From contig JAILAD010000078.1 of assembly GCA_024681795.1 (NCBI GenBank), forward strand, positions 62,001 to 126,000: DNA of 64,000 nucleotides, in the 5' to 3' direction. The stretch's first letter is position 1. The number at the start of each line of letters is the position of its first letter. Shown in pieces: positions 53,074 to 62,138 of this stretch. A model generated the notes under the pieces. It worked only from the letters and a program-made list of their open reading frames with translations, was not told the DNA's origin and did no database searches. The position numbers and the translations under genes are program-made. The DNA is from Lachnospiraceae bacterium. Its GTDB lineage: Bacteria > Bacillota > Clostridia > Lachnospirales > Lachnospiraceae.

Positions 53074-54450
53074 TTAAGACAAATCCGTCCGGTCAAAAAG
53101 GAATACATTCTCTCTGTCTGCAAGTTCATTGAGCGTTTGGGAGTCAAATCCGTCCAGCGAAAACAGATAATAATAATCCGGTGTCAGATGAGTTTCTTTT
53201 GTGACGGAAACAAGCTTTATGAATTCATCATAGGTTAAAAGGCCGCGCTCTTTTTTGCAGTATCCGAATAAGAACTGTCTTTCCCTGTCCTGTGCAATAA
53301 TGTCAACCGTGCCGGTTTTTCCGACCCACTCTCCGTATTTGGTAAACTTAATCGGAAGATATTCGCGTTCATTAGCCAGGCACAAAAATTCCTCGCATAT
53401 GGTCGGAAAAATCTGCATACAGTAATTGTCGATATGATCTTTGATATACGTGTTGTAAAATTCCTCTTCACCGATTAACGATAGTTCGGTTTCGTGAGGA
53501 TAAAGAAAAGTAAAATAAAATTTTACAATCGGATTCTTAATGCGGTAAACACCTTTTTTGGTATTTTCCGCACCCGGGGTATCATAGGATTTAACCTTTT
53601 CCACAATCGAGATTTCCGTCAGGTTTTTCAGATAAACGGAAATCTTTGCCCTGGAAAAACCCGTATGAAGAAATAAATCGTTTAATTTATTCCGGCCTTC
53701 AGCCAAAGACGCAAGAATCGTCGAATAAACGGAAGGTTCCCTTAACTCGCTTTTGATTAAATCCATTCCGTAACTCCGGTATACACCGCCCGGAAGAAGG
53801 AAGGTTCCGATTATATTTTGCCGCAGGGAAAGTGCAGGCGTGAAGTGTTCATATGCGTCCTGCATTCCGCCCAGAATTGCATAAAATGACAGCAGTTTGT
53901 CAAACTCTTCCGTATTCATCATACAAACGATATCCAGAAATTCCAGAGGGTTAACTTTCACAAATCCCTGAAACTTTATTTTCTTCAGGAGAAGTTCCGA
54001 TACAAGGGTATTTTCCACCCAGTTTCCGCGTTCACTGACAAGCAGAACCATTATTTTATCTTCATAACGGTATTTTTGAATGAAGTCATTTAATTCTTCA
54101 AGAAAAGCAGAACCGCTCTGAATCAAAAAATGAAAATCAGAAAGAATCAGAAGCTTTTTTTCATGCTTATTCGGATTGACTGCGGAAATAACAGACTCAA
54201 AAACGGATGTGAACGAATAATCGAATTCGGTTTCTCCGTTCCAGTTAAGGGTTTTTGCGAATAAATAAGCCTGTTCCCTTCCGGATGCGGGAACGGCTTT
54301 CAGATATGTGGTATCCTTCCCTCCGGCGAATTCACGCCAGAGAGAAGATGTACCGACAAGATGTTCTCCGTAGAGAACAACAATGTTACTTTCTTTGCGT
54401 TCAAAGAAGTCGTTTAATGTATTCAGTTCTTCATTACGTCCCTGAAGCAT
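53074..54450 (-). CDS. DUF234 C-terminal archaeal-type ATPase-like protein with degenerate Walker A
   Basis: A 458-residue protein of the archaeal ATPase/DUF234 family: N-terminal P-loop region (about 1-220), a winged-helix region (about 230-310) and a C-terminal DUF234 domain (about 320-440) of PD-(D/E)xK-like fold. The Walker A should read GxxxxGK(S/T); here it is GEHLVGTSS (Gly28 to Ser36) with Thr replacing the Lys. Walker B is LLILSDFHFLI with a single Asp. ATP binding is therefore doubtful. Function unknown; it may bind DNA or act as an inactive relative of a family often linked to mobile elements. Confidence 0.8.
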   Translation of the reverse strand: MLQGRNEELNTLNDFFERKESNIVVLYGEHLVGTSSLWREFAGGKDTTYLKAVPASGREQAYLFAKTLNWNGETEFDYSFTSVFESVISAVNPNKHEKKLLILSDFHFLIQSGSAFLEELNDFIQKYRYEDKIMVLLVSERGNWVENTLVSELLLKKIKFQGFVKVNPLEFLDIVCMMNTEEFDKLLSFYAILGGMQDAYEHFTPALSLRQNIIGTFLLPGGVYRSYGMDLIKSELREPSVYSTILASLAEGRNKLNDLFLHTGFSRAKISVYLKNLTEISIVEKVKSYDTPGAENTKKGVYRIKNPIVKFYFTFLYPHETELSLIGEEEFYNTYIKDHIDNYCMQIFPTICEEFLCLANEREYLPIKFTKYGEWVGKTGTVDIIAQDRERQFLFGYCKKERGLLTYDEFIKLVSVTKETHLTPDYYYLFSLDGFDSQTLNELADRENVFLFDRTDLS

Positions 54451-57118: not shown

Positions 57119-57148
57119 AAAAAAACCATACCTCACGTGGTATGGTTT
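57119..57148 (-). terminator. terminator after tRNA-Thr
   Basis: AAACCATACC pairs with GGTATGGTTT around 6 bases and runs into TTTT on the minus strand, immediately downstream of the tRNA. Confidence 0.8.
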
Positions 57149-57285: not shown

Positions 57286-59688
57286 TTATTTTAATATTTT
57301 TTCGAGTTCTTTCACCTGATTTTCGGCATTTTTCTTTGCATTTTCAATGATGGAATTCTTTTCTGCTTCAATTTCTTTAATTCTGCTTTCCGCATTTTTC
57401 ACGGCTTCGGCTATAATACGCTGCTTTTCTTCTTCCACTTCTTTCTTTTTGGTTTCTACGTAGCGTACTTTTTCCTGATATTTCCTCTTTGCAATCTGTT
57501 CCTGTTCTTTTTCCGTAAAAGGACGATAGGAAAAAATCTGCATGCTCATTGCGGGAATGCTGACAGTAGCCGACTGTGTGAATCCGTCCATCGGGATTTC
57601 CTTTGTGGAGATTGCGCTTTTGTTAATCAGTCCGCCTTCCGTATATTTTTCGTCATCAGTGGTGAATATTTCTTTGATTTTTCCTTCCCTGGGAAGACCG
57701 AACGAATATTTCTCAATTTCATGATTGGAGAAATTGAAAATAATGAATTCCGTTGTGTTTCCGGATAAATCACTTCTCTGGAAAATGAAGACGTTATCCG
57801 TCGGGTCGTCCGATTTAATCAATGTGAAGTTGGCACTCTTTTCCCCTTCCGGATGATACAGTTCCTTTGCTTCGTACATGGCAAACATATCTTTGATGCA
57901 CTGAATTTTATTGATAAAAATTCTGGCTTCTTTTAAAGAAGTTGCATAGGGATTTGCAAAATAACTTTCTTCACAGAAATTGTCGGTTCCCATGAAATTC
58001 AGTTTTTTTCCGGGAAATACGCTTAAAAATGCATTTGCCAAAACCACGTTTTTGATTTTGTCTTCCAGTGTTCCGGGCATTCTCATCAGCATGGAAACAA
58101 AATCCCTGGAAGATGCCTTGTAGGAAAACGGGAGAATAAAATCTTCATGGAAAGCATAATGAATCAGATCCGCAAATTCATAATAATGCTCATTTCTGTA
58201 AAACGGATCGTTCTGCAGATAGGAAATGACGCCGGTTTCAAATCCGGTGTTCAGGATATAATCAAACAAAAGGGAATCCTTGCCGGATTTCACCGTTACA
58301 TTTTCCAGGACACCGTCGGAGGATGCGATCTTAAATACATGCGGATACTTTTTCGCGATTTTTCCGTTTAATTTCTTTAAGAAACGTACTCCGGAAAGAT
58401 TTAAGTTTCCGCCGTATTCATTCGGAATCCACTCGCCTGCCCTCTTTCCGTAATCCAGATATAAAAGTGCAGCAAGATCCGGAATCCTGTATCCGTCAAG
58501 ATGATAGGTTTCAATCAGATAAAGTGCAGCGGAAATCAGATAACTTTGTACAAATCCGTTTGAAAAATCGAATGCAAAACCACCGAATCCGGGCTGATAC
58601 ATGACTCTTTCATCTGCGGATTCAAACAAAGCCTCTCCGTCAAAGAAATGAAGTCCCGCTTCCGTTCCCGCAAAATAGGAAACCGGAAAATCAACGGATA
58701 CGGACAGATTTGCTTCATGAAGTTTGTTTACAAATTCCTTAAATATTTCAGGCCCGCCCAGTTTCTTTGAAATTGCATAGATTCCGAGAATGTGCATTCT
58801 GTCGTTTGCATCCGGAAGAGGCTCGTAAATACCCATCAGATGAATTCCCGTATAGGAATATTCCTTGCAGTGTTTCAGCAAAACAGGAAGTAAATCCAGA
58901 CAGTTTTCGGTCTTTTCGTCAAGAAGCGAAAACAAATCCACTTCATAAAAATGTGTTGCGGATTTTAAGGCAACATTTTTAGCGGCTTTTTTATCGGAAG
59001 AACCGATATGACTGCATATTACGGAATTTCTTCCGTTCTGGCACAAAGCGAAAGGATCGGCTTTTTCAATATTCTTCGACCCGCGTCCTTTAATGGAATA
59101 ACGATATTCCGTTCCTTCCTCTGCACCGGGTACGAACAGTGAAAACACTCCCGTACTCTCATTCTTTTCCATCAGATGAGAGCCTTCCTTGAAATTGTTA
59201 AAATCGCCGAGAATGCTGATTTTCTGGGCTTTCGGCGCATAGACCGAAAATAAAATTCCTTCCACCCCGTCAAACTTCATTTTCTTTGTACCGAGAATCT
59301 GCGAAGCCGTTTCGTTCGTTCCGCGTTTAATGGATGCGATTCCCTTATCGTCAACAGCAGCCTTAAAAGAATACGGGTCATATACATTTTTCTTCTCCGC
59401 ATTTGCGTATTCAATCGTATACGTATAGGAGTCAAAGGTTTCTTTTGTCAGAAATACGGCAAAGAATCCGGCTTCGTCCACAAGTTCCATTTCCACTTTT
59501 TTTGTCTTTTTTGTTTTGCCGTTGTACAGATTGGCATAAACTTTGGAAGCTTCAGGGAAAAATGCCTGCAGAATTTTTTCGGACTTGCGTGTATGCAGTC
59601 CTAAAACGGTTGACGGCTTTGCGCAGTCCGCATATACGATGGATTCAATTTCCTCCCAGTTCATAAGGGCATACTGTTTTTTGTTCAT
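57286..59688 (-). CDS. GlgB-like protein lacking all three catalytic residues, with C-terminal coiled coil
   Basis: An 800-residue protein homologous to 1,4-alpha-glucan branching enzyme. Two CBM48-like domains span about 20-230 (ILGDFNNFKEGSHLMEKNES). The (beta-alpha)8 barrel follows (about 245-600) with GlgB-like blocks YHLDGYRIPDLAALLYLDYG, AGEWIPNEYGGNLN and SVFPGKKLNFMGTDN. In active GlgB the three catalytic residues are Asp (RVDAV), Glu (AEES) and Asp (SHDE); here they are Pro403, Ser456 and Lys524. Residues about 690-800 are an unusual charged coiled coil (VRYVETKKKEVEEEKQRI, ENAKKNAENQVKEL). It is therefore probably a non-enzymatic glycan-binding or scaffold protein. Downstream of the DUF1015 gene; no other glycogen gene is in the window. 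Confidence 0.9.
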   Translation of the reverse strand: MNKKQYALMNWEEIESIVYADCAKPSTVLGLHTRKSEKILQAFFPEASKVYANLYNGKTKKTKKVEMELVDEAGFFAVFLTKETFDSYTYTIEYANAEKKNVYDPYSFKAAVDDKGIASIKRGTNETASQILGTKKMKFDGVEGILFSVYAPKAQKISILGDFNNFKEGSHLMEKNESTGVFSLFVPGAEEGTEYRYSIKGRGSKNIEKADPFALCQNGRNSVICSHIGSSDKKAAKNVALKSATHFYEVDLFSLLDEKTENCLDLLPVLLKHCKEYSYTGIHLMGIYEPLPDANDRMHILGIYAISKKLGGPEIFKEFVNKLHEANLSVSVDFPVSYFAGTEAGLHFFDGEALFESADERVMYQPGFGGFAFDFSNGFVQSYLISAALYLIETYHLDGYRIPDLAALLYLDYGKRAGEWIPNEYGGNLNLSGVRFLKKLNGKIAKKYPHVFKIASSDGVLENVTVKSGKDSLLFDYILNTGFETGVISYLQNDPFYRNEHYYEFADLIHYAFHEDFILPFSYKASSRDFVSMLMRMPGTLEDKIKNVVLANAFLSVFPGKKLNFMGTDNFCEESYFANPYATSLKEARIFINKIQCIKDMFAMYEAKELYHPEGEKSANFTLIKSDDPTDNVFIFQRSDLSGNTTEFIIFNFSNHEIEKYSFGLPREGKIKEIFTTDDEKYTEGGLINKSAISTKEIPMDGFTQSATVSIPAMSMQIFSYRPFTEKEQEQIAKRKYQEKVRYVETKKKEVEEEKQRIIAEAVKNAESRIKEIEAEKNSIIENAKKNAENQVKELEKILK

Positions 59689-59764
59689 GGATTTTTTCCT
59701 TTCAGGTGAATTCAGACATTTTCCGGTTAAATCTAAGCCTGTACCGGCATTTATGAAAACATAA

Positions 59765-61003
59765 TCAGCGGATGGAATGAATAAAAAGTCCGCTTCTTAA
59801 TTTCGGCTCAAACCAGGTTGATTTGGGAGGCATCAGTAAATGTGCATCCGCAACTGCAAAAAGTTCATTAATGGACGTCGGATACATTCCGAATGCAACC
59901 CTGCAATCGGTATGTACTCTTCTTTCCAATTCGGAATATCCTCGTATTCCGCCGACAAAATCAATTCTCTTGTCGGTTTTCGGATCCTCGATATGAAACA
60001 TCGGATTTAATACATAATCCTGTAAAACGGATACATCAAGCCCTTTAATGGGATCATCGCTCTTAAAGGCATCCTTTACTTTCAAAAGGTACCAGCAATC
60101 GGACAAAAACATCGCTATTTCGCCTTTTGATGAAGGCTTCTCGGGATTGGTTCCGACGGTTTTGATTTCAAAAACGTCCTTTAAAGCTTCAATAAAAGAT
60201 TCATCGGTATATTCGCCGAGATCTTTTACGACACGGTTATAATCCATAATCATAAGCTGCTCGTCCGGAAAAAGTACGGACAGGAAATAATTAAACTCTT
60301 CTTCTCCGGTGTAGCCGGGATTCGCTTCTCTTTTCTTTAATCCGACTTTTACTGCGGATGCACATCTGTGATGTCCGTCGGCAATGTAAATATCTTTCAT
60401 TCCCGCAAATGCATTCCGGATAACATCAATTGATTTTTCGTCGGAAATAATCCAGACTTTATGAGTAATTCCGTCCTCCGAAGTAAAATCGTACAAAGGT
60501 GCTTCGGCTTTAGCTTTTTTGATTTCCCGGTCAATGTTTTCTTCAAAGCGATACGCTAAAAAAATCGGTCCGGTCTGTGCTTCCATGGTTCCGACATGAC
60601 GAATACGGTCCTCTTCCTTATCGGCTCTCGTATTTTCATGTTTCTTGATAATTTCATTCTGATAATCGTCAATGGATGCGCATGCAACAAGACCGGTCTG
60701 TGAACGGCCGTCCATAATCAGTTCATAAACGTAATATACCGGTTTTTCATCGGTTACGTAAATTCCCTCCGATACCTGTTCCCGGAACATGTCCCTTGCT
60801 TTTTCGTATACCTCGTCGCTGTAAGGGTCAGTCCCTTCGGGAAACTGTGTTTCCGCACGGTCGATATTTAAAAAAGAATAAGGTTTTCCTTCCACCTCTT
60901 TACGAGCTTCTTCGGTATTGTAAACATCATACGGAAGTGCTGCGATCTGAGATTCCAGCCCTTTTTTCGGCCGGATTCCCTGAAACGGTCTGATGACTGC
61001 CAT
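59765..61003 (-). CDS. DUF1015 family protein
   Basis: A 412-residue DUF1015 protein. Family opening MAVIRPFQGIRPKKGLESQIAALPYDVYNTEEAR and later YIADGHHRCASAVKVGLKKR are distinctive. The central HHR motif suggests a nucleotide- or phosphate-binding site. In Clostridia this family frequently lies beside serC and serA, as here with one membrane protein between. Its biochemical role is not known to me; a link to serine metabolism is contextual. Confidence 0.93.
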   Translation of the reverse strand: MAVIRPFQGIRPKKGLESQIAALPYDVYNTEEARKEVEGKPYSFLNIDRAETQFPEGTDPYSDEVYEKARDMFREQVSEGIYVTDEKPVYYVYELIMDGRSQTGLVACASIDDYQNEIIKKHENTRADKEEDRIRHVGTMEAQTGPIFLAYRFEENIDREIKKAKAEAPLYDFTSEDGITHKVWIISDEKSIDVIRNAFAGMKDIYIADGHHRCASAVKVGLKKREANPGYTGEEEFNYFLSVLFPDEQLMIMDYNRVVKDLGEYTDESFIEALKDVFEIKTVGTNPEKPSSKGEIAMFLSDCWYLLKVKDAFKSDDPIKGLDVSVLQDYVLNPMFHIEDPKTDKRIDFVGGIRGYSELERRVHTDCRVAFGMYPTSINELFAVADAHLLMPPKSTWFEPKLRSGLFIHSIR

Positions 61004-61037: not shown

Positions 61038-62138
61038 TTAATATAATTTTCTGTTTTTTAAAAGCTCTGCAGATAACGATTCGTAATCAACGGCATTCAA
61101 CCGGTTTACAATCTCCGTAAATCCGGTCTCGCAGGCTTTTGAAATATAGATGCAAAAATCTTTATTCGGCCGTTTGAATAAATGAATTATTTCTTCTTTC
61201 GGACCGTCTATTGTAAATACCGCAAAATTTTCATGTCCGACAATGTAAAAATACTCACTTTTCGGGATTTGATATTCCCGGAAATGCTTTCCGAAGAAGG
61301 CTTTCCCGTAAATCACCAGTTGATTCTCCTTGTATGTCACAAATACCTTGTCGAATTTGCGAAAAGGCAGTTCGGGAAATCGGTCTTTCCGGATCATGAA
61401 AGCAACACACATATTCTGTCCCGGATGCATTGCTTTTAATTCTTTCGGGATATACTTTGTTCCTGTGTGTGACCTGATTTTCCCCCGGTCGAGTATCATA
61501 TAACGGAATGTCACAATATCCTGAAAATAGAAATACTGCAGCATTTTATTGCATTTCGGATAAAGAATAATCGTAACGATTACCATTGCTCCCCATATCG
61601 GGAAAGCGTATACCGGTATAAATATACTGATACCGAGAAGGATGAAATAAATAAGTGTTTTTATAATCTCACCGAAAAACGACATAAAAGGATATTGCAG
61701 GAAATTCTGCTGATAGCCGAATGCCGCAAACCAGAAACAGGATACAAAATACCACGCAATTAATGATAACAAAAGGAATACAAAAGTCATCGCATAAACA
61801 CAGATGATGTAAGAAAAGTACTCCGAAGTATTGCCGGATAGGATTCTATCCCCGTATTTCGTTCGGTAAAGATAATCCGCTTCTTTGTAATTTAAGTAAG
61901 AACGAATCAGGATTAAAACCAGAGAAAGGACAATTTCCAGTCTGCTGTAAAGTATCATGGCAACGGATTTGGAAAAACTTACCGAGGAGAACAATTTTCC
62001 GACCAGAAATATACCGAAACAAAGAACAATCACATAAATCGGCACATAATAGAAAAACGGATACATCACCCTGTTTCCGAAAAAAGCATTCAGGAGATAA
62101 AGAATTCCTTTTACGGAAACTGAAAGAACCGGTTCCAC
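61038..62138 (-). CDS. polytopic membrane protein with YcxB-like C-terminal domain; true start probably upstream
   Basis: A 366-residue protein from a GTG at 62138. About six hydrophobic helices occupy residues 10-210, followed by a soluble domain (about 240-345; FVTYKENQLVIYGKAFFGKHFREYQIPKSEYFYIVGHENFAVF) resembling YcxB-like domains. The frame is open and protein-like for 24 codons upstream of the GTG (NYASLVPDLVEPVLS and more), and the best ribosome site AGAGAGGA is at 62208-62215. No ATG, GTG or TTG is in frame near that site, but an ATT is at 62196-62198. Function unknown; it sits between serA and the DUF1015 gene. Confidence 0.75.
   Translation of the reverse strand: MEPVLSVSVKGILYLLNAFFGNRVMYPFFYYVPIYVIVLCFGIFLVGKLFSSVSFSKSVAMILYSRLEIVLSLVLILIRSYLNYKEADYLYRTKYGDRILSGNTSEYFSYIICVYAMTFVFLLLSLIAWYFVSCFWFAAFGYQQNFLQYPFMSFFGEIIKTLIYFILLGISIFIPVYAFPIWGAMVIVTIILYPKCNKMLQYFYFQDIVTFRYMILDRGKIRSHTGTKYIPKELKAMHPGQNMCVAFMIRKDRFPELPFRKFDKVFVTYKENQLVIYGKAFFGKHFREYQIPKSEYFYIVGHENFAVFTIDGPKEEIIHLFKRPNKDFCIYISKACETGFTEIVNRLNAVDYESLSAELLKNRKLY

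Follow-up and report, generated by a model that had tools for sequence, protein, structure and literature searches.

A GlgB paralogue without its catalytic triad is kept by purifying selection in a Lachnospiraceae genus, with similar and apparently repeated losses across the family

What might keep a glycogen branching enzyme (GlgB) homologue in a genome once all three of its catalytic residues have been replaced? The question is raised by an 800-aa ORF on the minus strand (57286-59688, as for all parts of the gene below) of a 64,000-nucleotide stretch of a Lachnospiraceae genome (hereafter the window), with a likely ribosome-binding site read from the sequence (AAAGGA, 59697-59702, minus strand, the ATG following 8 nt further on). 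The protein has the domain order of type 1 GlgB (GH13_9, N1 + CBM48) and clear full-length homology to it, with an N1 domain (GlgB_N, residues 11-106, 59371-59658; PF22019, E 1.4e-23), a CBM48 (residues 139-214, 59047-59274; PF02922, E 2.1e-22), a GH13 barrel region placed by alignment (residues about 240-620, 57829-58971) and a C-terminal all-beta domain (residues 626-720, 57529-57813; PF02806, E 2.4e-14). It is matched by six NCBIfam branching-enzyme models, each under its equivalog cut-off (best scores 422.8 vs. 741, 408.3 vs. 577 and 388.1 vs. 463.95 bits), and profile-profile comparison to GlgB by hhalign gives a probability of 100%; together with the Pfam domains, phmmer and MAFFT, these matches confirm the GlgB homology of the original prediction. 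The Pfam catalytic-barrel (alpha-amylase) model PF00128 has no match in the 800-aa protein, but does match the three other copies scanned (two intact and the partly changed L042).

At the three columns that we take, from established GH13 knowledge, to be the catalytic Asp/Glu/Asp, the protein carries Pro403 (nucleophile, 58480-58482), Ser456 (acid/base, 58321-58323) and Lys524 (third acid, 58117-58119). These are the residues originally predicted, and they were recovered by script and by three alignments that agree and are free of gaps around the sites (phmmer against GlgB chain 5GR1, hhalign, and a MAFFT alignment joining the query to 69 homologues, of which 4 are fragments). Tyr523 replaces the region-IV histidine that precedes the third acid, and Tyr338 the region-I histidine. 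A pseudoenzyme should have no intact acids elsewhere in its active site, and indeed no replacement acid at or next to the three sites is conserved across the genus copies in the MAFFT alignment. Two candidates for a shifted catalytic residue were rejected: Asp404, adjoining Pro403, gives way to Asn in L008 and L009 and to Phe in L011 and L012, and Asp458 to Asn in L013 and to Tyr in L015. The structure model (built from 7 sequences) is poor overall (pLDDT 52), so active-site geometry cannot be read from it. At the sequence level this is a catalytically dead GlgB paralogue, unlike GlgB in lacking the Asp/Glu/Asp triad and the motif histidines, in scoring under the NCBIfam cut-offs and in carrying a charged helical tail; it probably has no branching activity.

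The same state is found throughout the genus. Among 31 genomes (30 plus the window genome), a complete or almost complete copy of the gene is present in 27, and the search for orthologues proposed with the original prediction found the intact triad missing from all 27. The four genomes without a full copy are 70-80% complete, and one of them (G011) shows a gene fragment at a contig end; the copy of G016 (L031) is cut by a contig end and starts near residue 36, and L009 has a masked run inside its tail. The replacements are mostly P/S/K, the others being P/S/T, P/S/I, P/S/E, P/S/Y, S/S/K, N/D/D, N/D/N, N/E/N and V/Q/S. Every one of the 27 genomes with a dead copy also has a second GlgB, without N1 and with an intact D/E/D triad (in G028 split over two contig-end pieces, one with the triad). 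In the window genome this intact GlgB is 706 aa long, and GlgA, GlgD and, adjoining GlgD, a GlgD-like protein that is presumably GlgC are encoded as well. N1 separates type 1 from type 2 GlgB (as stated in an excerpt of PMC6339891); here, the type 1 copy is dead and the type 2 copy intact.

Constraint on the dead copies is clear. The ratio of non-synonymous to synonymous changes (dN/dS, Nei-Gojobori) between the query and an 88% identical orthologue (L005) is 0.047, and for the same pair of genomes it is 0.049 in the intact GlgB, 0.047 in argH and 0.061 in DUF1015. Over nine dead-copy pairs the ratio ranges from 0.047 to 0.098 (0.047-0.049 over three intact pairs), values that are rough because dS exceeds 1 in six of the nine. 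When the domains are taken separately, the barrel is lower than the CBM48 in query-L005 (0.037 vs. 0.084) and L017-L018 (0.068 vs. 0.118), but this is reversed in L011-L012 (0.115 vs. 0.064) and L014-L026 (0.136 vs. 0.089), leaving no steady order across pairs. Purifying selection keeps the dead paralogue, and the idea of a pseudoenzyme retained by selection is strongly supported by these sequence data (no intact triad in 27 of 27 copies, low dN/dS, an intact GlgB in each of these genomes). That the gene is a decaying pseudogene is hardly credible: between genus sub-clades its branches are longer than those of neighbour genes, which corresponds to faster change, but a long open frame is found in 27/27 genus copies, the single stop flagged (L014) sits at the end of a 779-aa ORF, and the low dN/dS already contradicts such decay.

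What the dead copies keep was measured at the columns that do not vary among 53 intact copies. Across the 27 copies of the genus, mean retention is 0.92 for N1, 0.76 for the C domain, 0.62 for the CBM48, 0.40 for the barrel outside the motifs and 0.26 for the catalytic motifs, and the corresponding values are 0.98, 0.92, 0.86, 0.68 and 0.48 in the 10 changed copies from outside the genus that were known at the time of the count, and 0.99, 0.67, 0.51, 0.49 and 0.34 in the query clade of 7, these means being coarse since only 10 N1 and 12 C-domain columns qualify. The CBM48 is the least conserved domain within the query clade (0.34 of positions invariant vs. 0.44-0.53 elsewhere). One CBM48 column (166) is Trp in 53/53 intact copies and keeps an aromatic residue in 27/27 genus and 10/10 other dead copies (Phe in the query and its clade). 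In the query clade, the stretch past motif II is 83% invariant, which suggests that binding, newly gained or retained, may be a role of the old cleft region.

The loss is not a single event: copy counts and trees point to its recurrence in many genera across the family. Outside the genus we considered 90 N1-type copies, chosen by score and coverage among the matches listed (60 and 26 from two collection rounds, plus L019, L033, L042 and L045), with several genomes contributing two. Seventy are intact, 19, each from a different genus, lack one or more residues of the triad and one (L208) is unreadable at the third site; given selection by score and coverage among the matches listed, 19/90 is not a frequency estimate. 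In one of the 19 (L101) the sole change is Asp to Glu, and this copy may be active. Replacements are unrelated between lineages (P/S/K, N/D/N, V/Q/S, T/E/D, I/E/K and others). The full rows sorted as N1-less are D/E/D in 37 of 37 cases, one of which (L043) belongs in fact with the N1-type copies and comes from another family; a further 12 N1 copies taken from other families are likewise all D/E/D. A third, shorter GlgB-like copy occurs in some family genomes (L180 in G068, L176 in G034, L253 in G064 and L252 in G189) and is D/E/D in the three that were read (L176, L180 and L253). An intact GlgB is also present in all 19 outside-genus genomes with a changed copy (in G064, the partner gene is interrupted by a masked run), and where the N1-type copy is a genome's single match among the matches listed, it is intact (10/10 such genomes). 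Overall, in everything read, catalytic loss is found solely where another GlgB remains, which matches the prediction from redundancy.

On a protein tree, the dead state needs seven changes, six of them forced by starred branches, and a single origin is rejected (p-AU 0.005). This tree has 66 rows (10 of the 27 genus copies, all 19 other changed copies, 33 hand-picked intact copies out of the family's 70, and 4 from other families) and was built with a mixture model and a quick search after removal of the three catalytic columns. Trees of the neighbour genes need six changes for DUF1015, seven for MscS and ten for both together (four of them forced), and the two genes combined again reject a single origin (p-AU 1.6e-5; 49 rows, of which 6 have less than half the columns; outside the genus they cover 13 of the 19 changed copies and 19 intact ones with neighbour genes at hand). 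A first tree without the mixture model (LG+G4, 98 rows) needed only two changes, its dead rows being pulled into a grade of long branches. All trees were quick and carry SH-aLRT support only, several dead rows being long branches, and counts of changes alone do not separate loss from regain, which we take to be improbable. Repeated independent loss of the catalytic residues is thus well supported, its exact number being uncertain.

Past the C domain, residues 726-799 (57292-57513) form one predicted helix, a block with pLDDT 71-78 in the otherwise poor model, with a helical periodicity of 3.65 residues per turn (0/1000 shuffles as strong) and nearly balanced charge (20 K/R vs. 18 D/E in 76 residues). 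The coiled coil originally described thus stands as a charged, coiled-coil-like helix, but at about 75 residues by helix prediction rather than about 110. It had also been taken as an addition to the dead copy, which charged tails on intact relatives rule out: 55 of the 70 intact family copies have at least 20 residues past the C domain, 51 of them at least one third charged, and the same holds for 15 of the 19 changed copies outside the genus (13 at least one third charged). Tail and catalytic loss are thus independent of each other. Tail sequence and length vary widely between genera, a poor fit with a fixed partner site. The intact GlgB of the window genome (L040:1240-1500) begins with a Lys/Ala/Glu-rich low-complexity extension of ~88 aa; among 28 genus copies measured, this extension is 88-98 residues in 4 and 0-44 in the rest. 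Both GlgB paralogues of the window genome carry charged tails, at opposite ends.

Directly upstream of the ORF lies a DUF1015 gene (59765-61003, minus strand; PF06245 and synteny), a neighbour found in 17/17 genus loci with flanks. In 12 of these 17, a gene for a small MscS-type channel is directly downstream; argH and asd follow downstream in most loci whose contig reaches that far, and serA lies further upstream in 7. A terminator-like hairpin (57123-57148, minus strand) separates the 800-aa gene from argH, a consensus match only, the five such hairpins of the region being about as many as in shuffled sequence (mean 4.3). Among 89 loci with flanks outside the genus, 64 have MscS directly downstream, 27 have DUF1015 directly upstream and 68 have at least one of the two adjoining; DUF1015 and/or MscS adjoin 16 of the 19 changed copies, an adjacency that links these copies to this locus. 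All told, 76 of 106 loci have MscS on the same strand immediately downstream (dead 25/36, intact 51/70, with the unreadable L208 counted as intact), mostly within a few dozen bases of glgB. Examples of the pair are L096:122-1015 and L094:10046-10891, and the MscS domains were confirmed by Pfam for one locus protein.

How, then, is a protein of this kind best explained? A glycan-binding or structural role, as originally proposed, is plausible. We lean, with modest confidence, towards a non-catalytic glucan-binding scaffold or regulatory subunit whose role is older than the catalytic loss. N1, CBM48, the C domain and perhaps a remodelled barrel cleft would hold glycogen chains, and the charged helical tail would oligomerise the protein or bring in a partner, for instance GlgA or the active GlgB. 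A second, non-catalytic role was probably present already in the active ancestor at this locus; with the N1-less GlgB covering branching, the ancestor's catalytic residues would have been free to go and were presumably lost repeatedly for this reason. Against the scaffold stands the query clade, in which CBM48 invariants survive at about the barrel's rate (0.51 vs. 0.49), the CBM48 is the least conserved domain and column 166 is Phe.

Other explanations draw on the neighbourhood and on the constrained barrel. A binding or assembly protein tied to the DUF1015/amino-acid gene block, with a role unrelated to glycogen, is not a likely alternative, although DUF1015 is constant across the genus loci, argH and asd (and in 7/17 serA) share the block and the window genome does not have the gene beside glgA, glgC or glgD; the N1, CBM48 and C-domain signatures are kept, and DUF1015 adjoins the gene in only 27/89 loci outside the genus. 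The glgB-MscS pair could instead point to a partner of the channel, acting near it or regulating it and linking glycogen to turgor or osmotic state. The pair occurs at dead and intact loci alike, and its called starts (placed mechanically) overlap the end of glgB in 14 of 76 cases, but adjacency alone may be shared transcription, and in the clade of the window genome MscS is lost from the locus while the dead GlgB persists, the genome's only PF00924 match being distant (28% identity over 187 residues); we consider such a partnership unlikely. A wider and quite unlikely proposal would combine these elements, in that a branching-enzyme fold with a non-catalytic function predating the loss, paired with MscS across a large gut family, would connect glycogen with the tension of the membrane or with osmotic state, catalysis being optional and shed about six times or more. 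Finally, the barrel constraint in query-L005 (dN/dS 0.037) and the invariant stretch past motif II are what an enzyme using other residues, or another chemistry in a remodelled pocket, might show; this is very unlikely given that no acid at or adjoining the three sites is conserved genus-wide, that the catalytic motifs are the worst-kept part (0.26) and that lineages carry unrelated replacements.

Pseudoenzymes in plant glucan metabolism help decide how the polymer is built, and in Firmicutes GlgD is a regulatory-type paralogue of GlgC, similar to a regulatory GlgB paralogue in kind and pathway but of the ADP-glucose pyrophosphorylase family. The 800-aa protein shares with plant PTST proteins a CBM48, a coiled-coil-like helix and the absence of catalytic residues, but has a whole GH13 barrel and is thus not filed as a PTST member; the two are presumably not homologous along their whole lengths. 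Glucan binding, for a PTST-like role, is a candidate property suggested indirectly by the aromatic residue kept at column 166. In excerpts of PMC6243121, PTST proteins are non-catalytic, glucan-binding helpers of starch synthases with CBM48 and coiled coil, described there with no GH13 barrel, and GlgB is given a number of glucan sites on its surface, apart from the active site, so that binding could plausibly go on without catalysis. Plant ISA2 comes nearest among described cases; the relevant part of PMC12510319 presents it as a non-catalytic GH13_11 isoamylase paralogue that evolves at an elevated rate, has an N-terminal domain absent from the catalytic paralogues, binds ISA1 and was already non-catalytic in a common ancestor. 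Both are non-catalytic GH13 glucan-enzyme paralogues kept beside a catalytic one, with a raised rate of change and an additional N-terminal domain, but ISA2 is a plant debranching protein with an ancestral loss, and the 800-aa protein a bacterial one of the branching class with repeated losses. A glgA-glgB fusion of Criblamydiaceae and Waddliaceae is reported to inactivate the branching domain (excerpt of PMC11046441), which likewise gives a bacterial branching-enzyme domain without activity (here a prediction); that fusion, however, is a rearrangement in a broken GlgC-GlgA pathway, whereas the 800-aa protein is free-standing and conserved in a genome with glgA, glgD and an intact glgB. A free-standing bacterial branching-enzyme pseudoenzyme did not appear among the matches listed in the open-licence PMC literature.

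Repeated losses at one locus amount to a natural replicated experiment, in which the features surviving in every dead copy mark the non-catalytic function. Many second GlgB genes in Lachnospiraceae probably cannot serve to branch glycogen, a point that bears on how gut glycogen metabolism is predicted. The glgB-MscS pairing, frequent as it is, stands as an unexplained lead, the literature matches listed for MscS, glgB and Lachnospiraceae being stem-cell and microbiota papers.

Close to DUF1015, the surroundings of the locus also encode proteins of about 370-515 aa that evolve fast (L094:5004-6494 and window 61038-62138), with no Pfam match in either of the two scanned; one of 496 aa has hydrophobic stretches by eye, and four genus loci (L083, L084, L086 and L090) have two related fast-evolving genes side by side. 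A DUF234 protein with a sub-threshold ATPase_2 match (window 53074-54450) lies between topB and asd in many genus loci.
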